NCBI GenBank assembly: GCA_021823625.1
Contig: JAKANS010000004.1
Span: 1 to 64,000 of the forward strand
Length of the DNA: 64,000 nucleotides
Origin: a bacterium
GTDB taxonomy: Bacteria; Verrucomicrobiota; Verrucomicrobiia; Limisphaerales; J093
Direction of reading: 5' to 3'
Below the pieces are notes generated by a model that had not been told where the DNA came from, made no database searches, and was given only the letters and a program-made list of their open reading frames with translations. The position numbers and the translations under genes were made by a program. Of the stretch, positions 2,474 through 46,590 are shown piece after piece. How positions within the stretch are numbered: position 1 is the stretch's first letter; every line of letters begins with the position of its first letter.

Positions 2474-2570
2474 CAGCAGGGTTCGAAATCCTAAACGACT
2501 CGCGAGCACCGCTCGCGCCGTCGTTTCCATGAAGCCTGTCAGGTCGCCCAAGCAGGGTTCCCCGAGGCAG

Positions 2571-2626
2571 GGCCCGCTGTCCCAGCGGGCCGTTCCTTGT
2601 TGCGGGCGGCTCTCCGAGCCGCCCGC
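2571..2626. repeat. Two REP-like hairpins
   Basis: Two perfect inverted repeats lie side by side. The first has arms GGCCCGCTG / CAGCGGGCC around a TCC loop (2571-2591). The second has 11-base arms GCGGGCGGCTC / GAGCCGCCCGC around TCC (2602-2626). They share the loop and the arm pattern of the other dispersed copies, while the arm sequence differs on both sides in a compensating way. Confidence 0.85.
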
Positions 2627-3389: not shown

Positions 3390-3410
3390 GGACGCCTCGG
3401 AGAAACGTCC
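3390..3410. repeat. REP-like hairpin, degenerate copy
   Basis: Arms GGACGCCTC / GAAACGTCC flank the GGA loop and are followed by CCACC. This matches the dispersed REP-like family with two stem mismatches. It lies upstream of the nuclease-like gene that ends at 2642. Confidence 0.7.
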
Positions 3411-3609
3411 CCACCTTCCGCCGTTGGAATTGCCACCGAGAGGCAAAAAGCTCAAAAGCAAAGGAAGCCGGCGCCAAGAAGCCTCGTTCACTCGCCAGGT
3501 AAAGCAGGATCATCCCTCGAAACCAGCGTCCCCGGCCCTGTTTCCGCGCTTTTTGTGTCTTTTCGTGGCTCTTCAACCTAAACCGGAACGGCCGTTAAAA
3601 TTCGGGTGG

Positions 3610-34384: not shown

Positions 34385-34811
34385 GGGAGCCCCCTAAATC
34401 CCGGCACACAAACCAATACGTTGGTCACCTGGATGACCAACGCTACCCTTTCGCGCGGACTTGGAGCGCGGTGTGGATGAGACACGGCACCGGCAGATCC
34501 ACGATACCGATCAGGTCGTAGTCCCATGACATTCCGCCAGAACCCAAGCAAACTGAATCGAGCCAGAGCACACTGCTTTCCGGCAGTGGTCTGCACATGC
34601 CTTGGCCTCAGTGCCTGGCCGTGAAGGGAAGTCAGAGTCCGGTCCTGACTGCAGAATCGGTCCGATGCGACCGACGAGCTGTCGCGGCCAGGGCAGAGAC
34701 GCCGACGCCGCCATGATCGTCGATCGTTCGATCAGCACGGCGAAAGCTTAGCAGGATTCCTGCTGAAAACTGTGAGGATGGCTTGCCGCCTGGATCGTCC
34801 CGCGCAGGTAG

Positions 34812-34896
34812 GGTCGGTTCTCCGGAGCGGGCCGCGTTTTGTGCGGACATCTTGGAAAGATGTCCCACCAGGTGGGGCCGATTCTCCGAACGGGCC
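34812..34896. repeat. REP-like hairpins, three in a row
   Basis: The middle one is perfect: arms GGACATCTT / AAGATGTCC around GGA (34845-34865). The others have GGTCGGTTC and GGCCGATTC arms with TCC loops and one or two mismatches. GGTAG precedes the first. The 34385-34960 region shows nothing else I can name; a short open stretch near 34440-34540 is unrecognised. Confidence 0.8.
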
Positions 34897-40954: not shown

Positions 40955-41147
40955 GGTAGGGCCCGCTGTCCCACGGGCCGCACGGGGCTTTCTGGCAGGG
41001 TTGGCTCTCCGAGCCGACCTCCGTATTCTGCGCGGACATCTCGGAGAGATGTCCCACCGTAATTTCGGACACCTGAGGTAGGGCCCGCTCTCCGAGCAGG
41101 CCGCATCGGGCGTTTCGGAACGGACGCCTCGGAGAGGCGTCCCTACC
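40955..41147. repeat. Five REP-like hairpins in a row next to the RAYT gene
   Basis: Hairpins at 40960-40979, 40999-41019, 41034-41054 (perfect), 41082-41102 and 41122-41142 (perfect, arms GGACGCCTC / GAGGCGTCC). Loops alternate TCC and GGA, so units stand in both orientations, and GGTAG or CTACC lies at the foot. The final TAG of the RAYT gene at 41143-41145 is part of that foot. Confidence 0.9.
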
Positions 41148-41610
41148 TTCCCAAAATGCTGGCATACTGGCTGCCGAAACGCACAAAGGGCCAGTCTTCC
41201 GTTCGAGCCACCAACCCCGCCCGCACCGGATTCTCCAAGATATACGCCGCCTTGTCCCGCAAGCTCTCGTCCTGGCGCAAACGATGCCCAAAAAAATCGC
41301 GCTGCCAGCGAATCCCGAGATGACGCGCTGTCCAACGTTTCCAATCGCTCACGACACTGCGTATCGGGCGCGGCCAACCCCCGAACCGGAAAAGCCCGTG
41401 CAAATGATCCGGCATGAGCATCAGCAGGTGGCAATACCAGGCACCGGCGTGCTCCACCGAGGCGACGCTCTCGAACAAGCGCCGGGCAACATCGTCCACC
41501 GCCAGGGTGTTCTGACCGCGTGGCTGGCAGTTGAGGGTCAGGAAATAGATTTCCTGCGTCGGATCCACCCATAGCGGGATGTCATGGGGCAGGCGCTGGT
41601 GAACCGGCAA
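41143..41610 (-). CDS. REP-associated tyrosine transposase (RAYT, Y1/HUH family)
   Basis: The 155-residue protein starts MPVHQRLPHDIPLWVDPTQE and has the HUH motif MPDHLHGLF, with H-L-H as the metal pair. The catalytic tyrosine is in the AAYILENPVRAGL segment. RAYTs are single-copy domesticated-looking relatives of IS200/IS605 transposases that act on REP hairpins with a GTAG foot. Here such hairpins abut the gene on the 3' side. A TTG start is used because no ATG is in frame. Confidence 0.88.
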   Translation of the reverse strand: MPVHQRLPHDIPLWVDPTQEIYFLTLNCQPRGQNTLAVDDVARRLFESVASVEHAGAWYCHLLMLMPDHLHGLFRFGGWPRPIRSVVSDWKRWTARHLGIRWQRDFFGHRLRQDESLRDKAAYILENPVRAGLVARTEDWPFVRFGSQYASILGR

Positions 41611-41843
41611 CCTGTTTCAGGTAGCGTCCTGGGACGGCCGCCTGAGGCAGGGGCGGCTCTCCGGGCTGACCGGCCGGGGGTGGAATCGGCCATTTTCCGC
41701 CGCATTTACAGCCCAGACAGGCCTGATTTTTTTTGGCTGCTCAACTATAATCTGCCACTACCCAGCCATACCCGTTTGTCGGTGTTATCGAGTGTCATGG
41801 CACTGTTGAACACAGAACAACCCAGCCGTTTCTGAAACCGGGG

Positions 41844-42245
41844 CTATCTTGGCTCGATAACCGCCAGCCCCTTCACTTGGGCAAAATGCCGTTGGTTGAA
41901 CGTGGCTACTTCACTGCCGCGCTCCAAGGCTGTCGCCGCCACGATGAGGTCATAATAACCGATCGTCTTGCCGGACGATTCCAATTCTGCCCAAATGCGC
42001 GCGTGCTCGTAAGCTGTCTGCTCCGTGTAGGGAATGATGGGCAATGAAACCAGAATGGTCTGGAGATATTGGAGGCGTCTGGTTTTGTGCACTCCGGCAG
42101 CCCGTTCCACGCCATGCCAAAGCTCAGCTACAGTGACGGCGGCAACTTCAAATTGATCGTCCAGGCGGGAGGCCACCCAGCTTTTGAGATCAAATGTGCC
42201 TTTCTCGCCGCGAATGATGACATCGGCATCCAGAATTATCGCCAT
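41844..42245 (-). CDS. PIN-domain toxin (VapC type)
   Basis: The 133-residue protein begins MAIILDADVIIRGEKGTFDL and has VTVAELWHGVERA, GYYDLIVAATALERGSEVATFNQRHF. The acidic residues at D6, E-L and the D-x-x-V/I segment are those of PIN RNases. It ends 104 bases from a region without genes (41615-41843), and the ATG overlaps the antitoxin stop by 10 bases. Confidence 0.85.
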   Translation of the reverse strand: MAIILDADVIIRGEKGTFDLKSWVASRLDDQFEVAAVTVAELWHGVERAAGVHKTRRLQYLQTILVSLPIIPYTEQTAYEHARIWAELESSGKTIGYYDLIVAATALERGSEVATFNQRHFAQVKGLAVIEPR

Positions 42246-42508
42246 TTGTCAGCCGGGGCTTTGAGGGTTTTGCGGGCGGTTTGCAGGTCACGATGCCAGG
42301 CTGTGGCTTCATCTTCCGACAATTCGGTTTTGGCCAGGGCTTCGGCCAGGTCGCGGCCCGCGCAAACTTTCTCGTTGTCTGGCACCAACTGGGCGACGGG
42401 CGAGCCGTTCTTGAGCAGCACGAAGGTGACGTTTTGGTAATGGGCGCGGTTGACGCAATCGGCAAAATTGCGCGCGGCGTCGGTGACGCTGATGGTCGTC
42501 TTTCGCAT
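42236..42508 (-). CDS. Phd/YefM-like antitoxin
   Basis: This 90-residue protein begins MRKTTISVTDAARNFADCVN and has LLKNGSPVAQLVP, the Phd/YefM DNA-binding segment. It is the antitoxin of the PIN partner and presumably the operon's autoregulator. No leader repeat of the kind seen at 36-39 kb lies upstream; instead REP-like hairpins are found at 42633-42686. Confidence 0.82.
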   Translation of the reverse strand: MRKTTISVTDAARNFADCVNRAHYQNVTFVLLKNGSPVAQLVPDNEKVCAGRDLAEALAKTELSEDEATAWHRDLQTARKTLKAPADKWR

Positions 42509-42632: not shown

Positions 42633-42686
42633 GGACGTCTCGGAGAGGCGTCTCCACCTGGGGAGGGCCCGCTCTCCGAGCGGGCC
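42633..42686. repeat. Two REP-like hairpins
   Basis: GGACGTCTC / GAGGCGTCT with GGA (42633-42653) and GGCCCGCTC / GAGCGGGCC with TCC (42666-42686, perfect). They stand as inverted partners, as in the other clusters. Confidence 0.88.
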
Positions 42687-42729: not shown

Positions 42730-43500
42730 TCACCGACCCGCTTCGTGGCGCAACGATTCCAATTCCCGACGCAAGGGCTGCCAGTATTCGGCATCGCGCC
42801 GGCGCTCTTCAGCTTCCTCCTGAGCCAGGAACGCCGCCACCTGGTCGAGATCGCCCGACCGGGCGGCCGCTACAGCCTGGCGGCTGGCGGCCATCCGCGC
42901 CGCCTCATCCGCATACCGCTGGCAGAGCCGGCCAAGGATTTCCGGAGTTCGACTCTCCCTGAGCCAGAAAAGGATCGTTTCGCGGCTCGGGCGGGCGTGC
43001 GAAACGTAGTCCGCCTCGAGCAGCCGTCGAATCATGGGCCAATCCTTGTCGCGCTGGGTTTTCTTCGCCTGAACGAGGTCGGGCAGACTCAACACCGGAA
43101 CCTGCTCGGCGCCGGTCTCCAGGCGGATGGTTTGGCGTCGGTTCCACAAGGCCGCGAACGGATCGGCTCCGCGCAAAACCGACATCAGGTCAATGCGCAG
43201 ACCGGCCACGTCCGGATGTCGGCATCGGAAGTGCACGGCATGGCCCTTCTCGAGATACGCCAATTCGAATGGCGGAACCGCGATGACATCCGCCTCCAAC
43301 TCCCGCAATGCGACCTGCAGCAGATCCAGGTTGCGCTTGTCGGCCAGCACGACGAAATCGCTGTCCCGGCTGAATTCCGCCGCCCCGTAGAGGATACAAG
43401 CCTGCCCTCCCATGAGAAGGGCTTTCACGCTATGCCGGGAGAACGTAGAAAGGACTTTGAGTATCGGGTTCCGGATCAAGGCTGCCTCCCATCGCGACAT
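42730..43500 (-). CDS. AbiEii-like nucleotidyltransferase
   Basis: The 256-residue protein has KALLMGGQACILYGAAEFSRDSDFVVL with the D-S-D metal-binding pair of nucleotidyltransferases, GLRIDLMSVLRG and PVLSLPDLVQAKKTQRDKDWPMI (the D/K pair that follows in this family). It is the large part of a two-gene module with the small protein upstream. The ATG at 43500 gives a 71-base overlap with the small gene. No other start fits the D-x-D domain. Confidence 0.75.
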   Translation of the reverse strand: MSRWEAALIRNPILKVLSTFSRHSVKALLMGGQACILYGAAEFSRDSDFVVLADKRNLDLLQVALRELEADVIAVPPFELAYLEKGHAVHFRCRHPDVAGLRIDLMSVLRGADPFAALWNRRQTIRLETGAEQVPVLSLPDLVQAKKTQRDKDWPMIRRLLEADYVSHARPSRETILFWLRESRTPEILGRLCQRYADEAARMAASRQAVAAARSGDLDQVAAFLAQEEAEERRRDAEYWQPLRRELESLRHEAGR

Positions 43501-43652: not shown

Positions 43653-43742
43653 GGACGCCTCGGAGAGGCATCCCCACCAAGGTAGGGCCCGTTCTCCGAG
43701 CGGGCCGGCCGCCTGCGGACGCCTCAGAGAGGCGTCCCTACC
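43653..43742. repeat. Three REP-like hairpins
   Basis: GGACGCCTC / GAGGCATCC (43653-43673), GGCCCGTTC / GAGCGGGCC (43686-43706), GGACGCCTC / GAGGCGTCC with AGA loop (43717-43737, perfect). Followed by CTACC, the foot. Confidence 0.88.
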
Positions 43743-43803
43743 TCCGCTTGAACTCGTCGTAAGGCCTGGAACCACGCGTCAGTTCAGCGGGCAGCGGCAA
43801 TGA
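43738..43803 (-). pseudogene. Second copy of the WbpD-like C-terminal tail
   Basis: The codons read LPLPAELTRGSRPYDEFKRR and TAG, as compared with [20 protein letters not shown] and TAG at the end of the gene at 44824. The stop lies in the CTACC foot of a REP-like hairpin in both cases. Only the last about 20 residues remain. The pair makes a direct repeat of about 90 bases around the MNT/HEPN module. Confidence 0.65.
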
Positions 43804-43828: not shown

Positions 43829-44311
43829 TTAGAGCCTGTCCCCCAATGGGTAGTGCAGGCGATTCGCCCGCCCCGGAAGATCATTTTTCTGACCCGTACT
43901 AAGCGCGATGTTCAGGTTGAGAGCCGCGCAGAAGTTCTGCAGATCCTTCCCTCCCTCTTGCATGATGTAATGAATGACCTGGGCATCGAGATCCCGATAC
44001 GGGTGGATGGCGATATTGCGAAAGCCGGTCATGCCCGCCAGACGTGCCGCCAGCGCTGGGTCCAGCTTGCCGGCCTGATGCAGCAGGGTGAATGACTCCG
44101 CACTGCTTTGGGGAACACCCAGGTGCTCCGTGGCTACGATGTGCATGGCGAGATCAATGGCCGCCTGGCAGGCCCGCTCGAGGTTGAGCGTCAGGGCCTC
44201 CAGGTGCGTCGGGCTGGCCAGCGTGGAATCGCTTTCGTATTCCTCGCGCAGCCGGCGAAGGCACCGTTCGATAATGGCCGCCTTGTTCAGACTGATGGCG
44301 TCCGGCGGCAT
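43829..44311 (-). CDS. HepT-like HEPN protein
   Basis: The 160-residue helical protein has RNIAIHPYRDLD at about residue 110, the HEPN motif with the following Tyr. It belongs to the same branch as the one at 193-606 (both have AIIERCLRRL and FRNIAIH). The C-terminus is about 20 residues longer than usual. It overlaps the extended end of the partner gene by 158 bases. Confidence 0.82.
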   Translation of the reverse strand: MPPDAISLNKAAIIERCLRRLREEYESDSTLASPTHLEALTLNLERACQAAIDLAMHIVATEHLGVPQSSAESFTLLHQAGKLDPALAARLAGMTGFRNIAIHPYRDLDAQVIHYIMQEGGKDLQNFCAALNLNIALSTGQKNDLPGRANRLHYPLGDRL

Positions 44312-44711
44312 GGTAGGCGGTCTCCACTTCGTGACGGTCCTCTCTGAGCTGAAAATAACCGCCGAGAAGCCGACTCTCCGTCTCGGCAACGGCGTCGCGG
44401 TCAACCGTGAAGAGGCGTTGTCCCTTCAGAATGGCTTCGTAAGCATAGACCAGGTTTTTCGATGTCATCACGCCAAGGTCAACCGGTCGCCCGACCTGCT
44501 GCTGCAGAGCGGCGGCCAGCGTCAGGCGTTCGTGGATCGCGATCGATTGGCCAGCGAAGGGCAGCAATGCAATATCGATATCGCTGTCGTCACGGAGACG
44601 TCCGGAGACGGCGGATCCCAGCAAATAGGCGGCGGCGATTGGTGGGCACTGCCGCAGGACCGGAACCACGAGATGACCAATTTCCGCCGGGGTGGTCACG
44701 GGGCTTTTCAT
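44154..44711 (-). CDS. MntA-like nucleotidyltransferase with overlong C-terminus
   Basis: The 185-residue protein has LLGSAVSGRLRDDSDIDIALL with the GS...D-x-D signature. A family member would end near LREDRHEVETAYHAAG, at about 44310. The extra 50 residues (RHQSEQGGHYRTVPS...) are the HepT gene read in another frame. A stop has been lost, so the actual product may be longer or the start of HepT depends on ribosome restart. The start MKSPVTT at 44711 is used. Confidence 0.75.
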   Translation of the reverse strand: MKSPVTTPAEIGHLVVPVLRQCPPIAAAYLLGSAVSGRLRDDSDIDIALLPFAGQSIAIHERLTLAAALQQQVGRPVDLGVMTSKNLVYAYEAILKGQRLFTVDRDAVAETESRLLGGYFQLREDRHEVETAYHAAGRHQSEQGGHYRTVPSPAARGIRKRFHAGQPDAPGGPDAQPRAGLPGGH

Positions 44712-44772
44712 CTGGAACTGAGGAAATCGGGAAGGGTTCCGGTCGGTCGGGCAGTCATTTCGGACGCCCCAG

Positions 44773-44828
44773 GTAGGGCCCGCTCTCCAACCGGGCCGCA
44801 TCGGACGATTCGGAGAAACGTCCCTACC
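44773..44828. repeat. Two REP-like hairpins next to the WbpD-like gene end
   Basis: GGCCCGCTC / AACCGGGCC (44777-44797) and GGACGATTC / GAAACGTCC with GGA (44803-44823), then CTACC. Both are degenerate. The stop of the next gene is inside the CTACC foot. Confidence 0.75.
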
Positions 44829-46590
44829 GCTGCTTGAATTCGTCGTATGACCTGGAGCCGCACGACAGTTCCACCGGCAGCGGCGTGTCTTCGGGAAGAT
44901 CCAGGCACTTCAGGATCCCTGGCCGCACCTCCCGAAACCGGTAACCGGACTCCGGACAAACGAGCTGGCCATCCGCGCCACCGAGCTTCAGCATGTGCCC
45001 GTGCCGGCTCATCCAGCCCTTTTGCCGGGCCGGATTCCCCACCATCAGCGCGTAGTCGGGCACGTCTTTCGTCACTACCGCGCCGGCGGCGATGAAGCAA
45101 TACCGGCCCAGCGTGGTGCCGCACACGATGGTCGCGTTGGCCCCGACGGTCGCGCCGCGCTTGATCACGGTCTTTTCGTAAAGGCTGTGTCGGTTGACCT
45201 GCGACCGCGGATTGGTGACGTTCGTCAGCACACAGGAAGGGCCGAGGAACGCGTCATCCTCGATCTCGGCGCCGGTATAGACCGACACGTTGTTCTGAAT
45301 CTTGACGTTGTTGCCGAGTTTCGCGCCGCTGGCCACGTTCACGTTCTGCCCGAGCACGCATTTCTCCCCGATCTGGGCGCCTTTCTGCACGTGGCTGAAA
45401 TGCCAGATCTTCGTCCCTTTGCCGATGATCGCACCGTCGTCCACCACGGCGGTGGGGTGAACGAAGTAATCGAGTTGGAGAGGCTGAGGGTTGAGAGTTG
45501 AGGGGTGAGCGCCAGTGACCGGCGGCTCGGAAGCCGGCGCTGGCTGCCTGCGGGCTTCTGACTTCTCACTTCTGACTTCCAGCTCCTGTCCTACCCCATC
45601 GCCGTCATGCTCCAGGCTGCGTTGGGCCATCTGGAGCACCTGCAGGACGCGCAACCCTTCGCGACCGTCAGTGCGCGGGGCAACGCGCTCGCGACAGCAG
45701 TCCAGGAAGTGCTGGCACTCGTTGCGGAGCGGCTCGGATTCGGGCACCTCGACCGGTTCCCCCTTTGCCTTGTTCGGGGTGGGAGTCCGCCCGTCGGTCC
45801 AGGTGAGGTAGTGCCGATAAAACACAAGTTTCTCCGCCCACGGCTTCGTGTCGTCGAACACCGCCATACCGTGCGAGCCGACGACCGTGAGCTTCTGTTC
45901 CTTGAAGGGGTTGAGCCAGGTCACATAGACATGCGCCCGCACCCCGCCGGCGAAGCGCAGCGCGGTGAGCGTGGTGTCCGCCACCCCGCGCGTCAGGTAA
46001 GACTCACCCACGCAGCGCACCTGCTCGGGAACCTGGTTGCCAGCCAGCGAAAGGATGACCGAGAGGTCGTGTGGCGCGAAGCTCCACAGCGCGTTCTCTT
46101 CACGGCGAATCTTGCCGAGGTTCAGCCGGTTGGAGGCGATGTAGTGGAGTTGGCCAAGGTCGCCTTGGGCGACCAACGCCTGCAGCCGCTGAACACAGGG
46201 GTGATATTGGAGCAGGTGGCCGACCATCAGGACGCGCCCGGCGCGCTCCGCCAAGGCCACCAACTCCTGGGCCTGAGTTTCCTCCAGGCACAGTGGCTTC
46301 TCGACGAAAACGTCTTTGCCGGCCAGCATCGCTGCCTTCGCCAGGTCGTAGTGCAGGACCGCCGGAGCGGCGATCGCCACCTTCGTGATCGCGGGATCGC
46401 GCCACACTGCCTCCACGTCCGCGGTCTTTCGGACTTCTCCGTATTCCGCGCCGTATCCGGCAAGGGTCTGCGGGCTGGCATCGCACAGCGTACGGAGCGT
46501 GCCGAGCGTGTTAAAGTTGCGCGCAAGGTTCTTGCCCCAATAGCCGGCGCCGATCAGGGCGAGATCGCGAGGAACGGGAGTGGTAATCAC
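44824..46590 (-). CDS. Fusion of Gfo/Idh oxidoreductase (WbpB-like) and LbH acetyltransferase (WbpD-like)
   Basis: The 588-residue chain has a Gfo/Idh/MocA dehydrogenase at 1-335 ([33 protein letters not shown]) and a left-handed beta-helix N-acetyltransferase at 385-588 (hexapeptides [35 protein letters not shown]). WbpB and WbpD catalyse the 3-oxidation and 3-N-acetylation in UDP-2,3-diacetamido-2,3-dideoxy-D-glucuronate synthesis. The linker (about 336-380) is made of repeat-derived peptide ([13 protein letters not shown] and [12 protein letters not shown]) encoded by 7-base repeats at 45481-45508 and 45553-45587. A GTG is the start. The fusion by readthrough of such a repeat is an inference. 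Confidence 0.9.
45481..45508. repeat. Heptanucleotide repeat in the WbpB-WbpD linker (first)
   Basis: AGGCTGA, GGGTTGA, GAGTTGA, GGGGTGA in one phase, giving the peptide TLNPQPL when read on the minus strand. Confidence 0.8.
45553..45587. repeat. Heptanucleotide repeat in the WbpB-WbpD linker (second)
   Basis: GGCTTCT, GACTTCT, CACTTCT, GACTTCC, AGCTCCT. The same GACTTCY type as in the double aminotransferase gene; the minus frame gives [13 protein letters not shown]. Confidence 0.85.

Follow-up and report, generated by a model that had tools for sequence, protein, structure and literature searches.

The window, the whole stretch of 64,000 nucleotides analysed here, belongs to contig C190 of a metagenome-assembled genome (MAG; 6.11 Mb, 326 contigs, 90.9% complete, 3.1% contaminated) and carries a RAYT gene together with a family of REP hairpins (Table 1). 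A covariance model trained on 15 copies from the window recovered all 15 as strong copies (33-43 bits) and four further degenerate ones at 20-26 bits, all of the ~19 falling within 2566-44828 (~42 kb). The typical copy has a GGTAG or GGTGG foot, a 9-bp stem, a TCC loop and the tip CTC-TCC-GAG, and the mean column identity among copies is 81%. Overall, the 64 kb hold 48 raw hairpins with stems of at least 9 bp, versus 9-12 in order-2 Markov sequence.

Five REPs (40955, 40994, 41034, 41077 and 41122) lie 3' of the RAYT gene and one degenerate copy (41646) lies 5', so that the gene is flanked by cognate REPs as in a REPtron. The initial annotation had listed five hairpins beside the transposase and about 15 further copies, and the covariance model agrees with ~14 further. 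Its GGTAG/CTACC foot holds for six of the 15 strong copies, the others having GGTGG, GGTG, GGGAG or GGCAG; the family thus shows the palindrome and GTAG or GTGG foot of GTAG REPs, with some copies having GGGAG or GGCAG.

Table 1. The RAYT gene and REP hairpins of the window
Feature	Position	Strand	Remarks
REP L-type, loop altered (CTGTCCCAG)	2566..2591	+	Covariance model
Variant hairpin, TTGCGGGCGGCTC TCC GAGCCGCCCGCAA, without GTAG foot	2598..2624	+	24.7 bits
REP R-type	3390..3415	-	Covariance model
Degenerate REP L-type	34807..34833	+	23.8 bits
REP R-type, GGACATCTT TCC AAGATGTCC	34845..34870	-	Apical pair compensated too
REP L-type	34871..34896	+	Covariance model
Degenerate REP L-type	40955..40979	+	25.5 bits; just upstream of epimerase gene start
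REP, GGTTGG/CCGACC stem, GGCAG foot	40994..41019	+	Paired with 41034
REP R-type, GGACAT/ATGTCC stem, GGTG foot	41034..41059	-	Covariance model
REP L-type, GGTAG GGCCCG CTCTCCGAG CAGGCC	41077..41102	+	Outward-foot partner of 41122
REP R-type, GGTAG GGACGC CTCTCCGAG GCGTCC	41122..41147	-	42.9 bits; gives RAYT stop
RAYT / TnpAREP-type HUH-Y1 transposase	41143..41610	-	155 aa, TTG start
Degenerate REP, 5' of RAYT gene	41646..41671	+	20.5 bits
REP R-type	42633..42658	-	Covariance model
REP L-type, perfect GGCCCG/CGGGCC stem	42661..42686	+	Covariance model
REP R-type	43653..43678	-	Covariance model
REP L-type	43681..43706	+	Covariance model
REP R-type	43717..43742	-	Adjoins Gfo/Idh 3'-end remnant (about 43743-43800)
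REP L-type	44772..44797	+	Covariance model
REP R-type	44803..44828	-	Its TAG serves as stop codon of Gfo/Idh gene 44824-46590

The RAYT protein

The translated gene contains the motifs MPDHLHGLF (HUH) and YILENPV (Tyr) and scores 87.4 bits against NCBIfam NF047646 (REP-associated tyrosine transposase; cut-off 80), while the Pfam Y1_Tnp match is weak and sub-threshold (12.4 against 23). It aligns with E. coli TnpAREP (PDB 4er8; phmmer E=1.3e-7), and in this alignment the HUH motif (DHLH), Tyr115 and Asn119 are identical, as are the GTAG-contact residues Trp94/Gln95/Arg104; the roles of the catalytic and GTAG-contact residues have been described (PMC6006769, PMC8266576). The original call of a Y1/HUH transposase with RAYT features is therefore borne out by the family score above cut-off, the HUH and Tyr residues and the 4er8 match.

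The RAYT stop codon is the TAG within the GGTAG foot of the adjoining REP, and several RAYT homologs share such a REP-derived end (e.g., L054, L302, L303, L318, L327 and L164). This is not new, because GTAG REPs often supply the TAG stop of flanking ORFs (PMC3733652) and REPs directly behind rayt stop codons have already been noted (PMC2817692). RAYT homologs at 50-58% identity have GTAG hairpins of their own alongside, with different stems and tips. In the RAYT tree, the branching around the window protein lacks resolution, and a protein-based scan of genome contigs with the window RAYT as query returned no relative; organism names given below for REP relatives accordingly come from the DNA pattern scan alone.

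Compensated stem changes

In the 15-row window alignment, 94.1% of the stem cells are paired versus 76.3% after shuffling, two-sided stem changes number 23 versus 8.6, and the covariation score is 0.479 versus 0.164. None of 500 shuffles reached the observed paired share, two-sided count or covariation score, and with slid partners the score falls to 0.05-0.19. Two-sided changes occur at five of the nine stem pairs, apical ones included (CTC-GAG to CTT-AAG at 34845).

The same was seen on a larger scale in a scan of GTDB contigs with the pattern GGTAGGGNNNNCTCTCCGAGNNNNCC, which leaves four stem bases free on each side. At least 161 matches on at least 120 stretches were listed, mostly from Verrucomicrobiota (Opitutae, Kiritimatiellae, Spartobacteria and others), with at least 17 complementary stem types. 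Among those listed, the free quartets are exactly complementary in 112 of 161, whereas re-dealing the 3' quartets in 2000 shuffles gave 17.8 on average and 31 at most, related genomes in this set not being independent. Because the effect is so large, there is little doubt that the REP fold is under selection, as had first been proposed from a handful of compensated stems.

Selection on transcripts was weighed as a cause of these folds. Hairpins serving as terminators or 3' mRNA stabilisers, unrelated to the transposase, would fit the G-U pairs that occur in the window stems and the position of some copies directly behind stop codons (41143, 44824), and such roles have been proposed for REPs generally (PMC3733652). 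However, by eye a T run closely follows the hairpin at 42661-42686 alone, and the conserved GTAG foot, the inverted pairing and the RAYT association in other genomes are unlike terminators, which makes RNA elements an improbable explanation.

Paired arrangement of the REPs

GGCCCG-type copies all lie on the plus strand and GGACGC- and GGACAT-type copies all on the minus strand. L- and R-type copies form outward-foot pairs with unlike stems, and inward-foot neighbours occur in longer arrays. Five such inverted outward-foot pairs are present (40994/41034, 41077/41122, 43681/43717, 44772/44803 and 34807/34845), which answers the question of pairing raised with the first description of the copies.

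REP heterodimers have been described (PMC3733652), and among the outward pairs listed from Verrucomicrobiota, the window's own pair included, 41 of 53 are heterodimers. All listed pairs with a gap of up to 20 bp are heterodimers, and 12 longer-gap pairs are homodimers; counted by hand as distinct types, homodimers make up 0 of 16 at gaps of up to 20 bp versus 6 of 19 at longer ones (Fisher p 0.02). This gives a hint that spacer length is linked to homo- versus heterodimer formation, the homodimers coming mostly from Geminisphaera/Opitutaceae records.

Between 41.1 and 44.8 kb, REPs separate the gene modules RAYT, Phd/PIN toxin-antitoxin, a 256-aa ORF, HepT/MntA and Gfo/Idh. The toxin-antitoxin modules between REP clusters are a PIN gene with a Phd/YefM-like partner (41844-42508) and HepT/MntA (43829-44801); the 256-aa ORF (42730-43500), likewise between clusters, has no Pfam or NCBIfam match. 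The remnant at 43743-43800 resembles the 3' end of the Gfo/Idh gene, and the REP pair beside it is like that of the intact gene.

Relation to known RAYT-REP systems

The RAYT-REP reading of the initial annotation fits both the family of the protein with its catalytic residues and the REPs themselves, with their GTAG foot, their inverted pairing and the compensation in their stems, and we are highly confident that the window holds such a system (REPtron/REPIN), mechanism class included, with a single TnpAREP-type RAYT and its cognate REPs. Such systems are already known, and earlier work has covered GTAG repeats in Verrucomicrobia as well as REP-derived TAG stops and the occurrence of REPs next to polysaccharide genes (PMC3733652).

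E. coli TnpAREP (4er8) shares the HUH-Y1 core and the catalytic and GTAG-contact residues at low sequence identity, and the E. coli REPs (y, z1, z2) share the GTAG foot and the inverted pairs beside the gene (PMC8266576), but these need a stem bulge, whereas the window REPs have perfect 9-bp stems and a 3-nt loop. In the Group 3 systems of Stenotrophomonas and Marinomonas (PMC8266576), too, the REPs are perfect palindromes with a GTAG foot and short loop; the window REPs differ in their CTC-TCC-GAG tip. Within the same phylum, the GTAG REPs of, e.g., Opitutus terrae have a GTAG/GTGG foot (Di Nocera et al. 2013, PMC3733652), and the families in that study share with the window complementary stem variation, heterodimers, TAG stops and, in Thauera, arrays at polysaccharide genes. 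Unlike the window family, they are mostly genome-wide, T. roseum GTAG-23, which is clustered at a few loci, being the stated exception. The REPINs of Pseudomonas fluorescens (Bertels and Rainey 2011, PMC3116915) are, as in the window, inverted doublets proposed to be RAYT-mobilised; they form a genome-wide population, whereas the ~19 window copies sit on one contig and their partners have unlike stems.

Confinement to one contig

The host MAG has 48 sites with the exact core CTCGGAGAG. A REP stem is present at eight of the nine sites in the window and is lacking at the 39 sites off C190, of which 37 have 0-3 of 6 pairs and two have 4 of 6, none next to the core. A MAG-wide covariance model search (the best 150 of 5,292 candidates were scored) found REPs on C190 alone, and when 380 kb taken from 19 other host contigs were searched with the model, no match exceeded 21.1 bits. 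Four model matches at 18-21 bits on other contigs appear to be chance matches or isolated degenerate hairpins. Genome-wide dispersal of the family in the host was rejected on the core and model searches, all 19 copies found being on one of 326 contigs; the confinement is judged from a MAG of 90.9% completeness and 3.1% contamination. The genome-wide count suggested in the initial annotation therefore turned up no copies off C190 in the MAG, and the excess outside the locus on which its reading had been made to depend is absent from the host and plentiful in other Verrucomicrobiota: the same REP tip is present in at least 18 copies over many contigs in each of four genomes (G203, G127, G013 and G086). 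REPs are typically dispersed, but dispersal does not strictly define them, and exceptions have been published.

The same REP pattern was also seen in MAG contigs L119, L123, L128, L136, L149, L155, L159 and L161, labelled Accumulibacter, Zoogloeaceae, Polynucleobacter, Acidobacteria and Oscillospiraceae, through transfer or mis-binning.

The host also has an unrelated, resident REP family, GGTGGGGCGAGACTCCGTCGAGCC, whose stem contains a tandem GA mismatch and whose 66 copies lie on many contigs, three of them beside a RAYT paralog on contig C136. There (L010, G000:C136:6631-9987), resident REPs at 1260-1282, 1440-1462 and ~1970-1990 flank this second RAYT. C190 holds 15 of 15 strong window-family copies versus 1 of 66 resident copies (Fisher on copies on and off C190, 2e-15, array copies not being independent).

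Is the contig native?

C190 looks native to the host, because of its synteny with a congener at 32-53 kb and the one resident-family REP at its far end (C190:84416). Its genes at 32.5-34.4, 39.9-40.9, 44.8-47.9 and 49.5-53.2 kb have a syntenic locus in congener G001, with 61-89% protein identity (RecA, 86%). That resident REP, together with host-like composition at 50-80 kb and a TPR gene at 60 kb that is matched best within the host family, also makes it very improbable that C190 was mis-binned from a genome having the window family throughout, as might be thought from the absence of the family from every other MAG contig.

Composition deviates at 10-40 kb, departing from the tetranucleotide profile of the host by 2.3 and 2.1 (mean, 1.0). 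The RAYT, along with already diverged REPs that never moved here, may have come in on a segment from a REP-rich verrucomicrobial donor. Congeners G001-G003 have neither the window REP family nor a close RAYT, many verrucomicrobial genomes have the same REP tip on many contigs, and the window copies are diverged, as old passengers would be. Yet the Gfo/Idh, GHMP kinase, epimerase and UGD proteins, whose genes bear or adjoin the REPs, are about as congener-like (74-85%) as RecA, and the counterpart locus of the congener is likewise packed with REPs, of another family. We regard import as a plausible but less than even prospect.

REPs at polysaccharide loci

The region from 2.6 to 44.8 kb was called mostly polysaccharide genes because of its DegT aminotransferases, nucleotidyltransferase, UDP-glucose dehydrogenase, UDP-GlcNAc 2-epimerase and Gfo/Idh genes. 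The other family in the congeners, GTAGGAGTCGAGGTGACGAGACTC, has 218 copies in G001 and 178 in G003 and none in the host. The counterpart locus on G001:C39 holds 29 copies in 60 kb where 1.6 are expected, and G003 has nine exact copies within 16 kb surrounding an epimerase homolog (0.37 expected), although Poisson significance of these clusters is overstated because arrays count many times. The G001 copies sit where the host REPs do, namely on the 3' side of Gfo/Idh and on the 5' side of both GHMP kinase and the epimerase. In L272-L273 and L280 (G001:C39:28459-47602), the family is dense in the polysaccharide locus and follows the Gfo/Idh stop. REP accumulation at polysaccharide genes has a precedent in Thauera, where GTAG arrays flank such genes (PMC3733652).

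We lean towards the view that confinement reflects a hot spot, in which a second REPtron sits in a REP-collecting polysaccharide locus without having spread. More doubtful is a genus-wide extension, whereby the locus would be a conserved hot spot for unrelated families in different species, at partly matching intergenic gaps, and REPs bounding swappable cassettes (toxin-antitoxin) would help to remodel surface-polymer loci.

Proposed mechanism and implications

By analogy with studied homologs, the window RAYT most likely binds and cleaves REP DNA. It would recognise single-stranded REP DNA by three features (the GTAG/GTGG guide on the 5' side, the stem in its folded state and the tip CTC-TCC-GAG), cleave beside it, and move or rearrange inverted REP pairs (REPINs) during replication; we infer mobility of the window REPs on this basis. 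Selection would act on fold and tip rather than on stem letters, so that stems can drift as long as their changes are compensated. Given that the copies are diverged (81%) and that GTAG is missing from some feet, the system may be decaying.

The natural covariation set is large, with one tip and at least 17 stem types, and shows what a RAYT has to read in a REP. Two REP systems with opposite distributions in one genome, 66 copies dispersed versus 19 confined, let one ask whether REPs spread from the site of their RAYT. Worth following up are the confinement of the window family and the way in which REPs recurrently gather at the polysaccharide locus; if the recurrent hot spot at polysaccharide genes is true, REPs would take part in the remodelling of surface-polymer loci.
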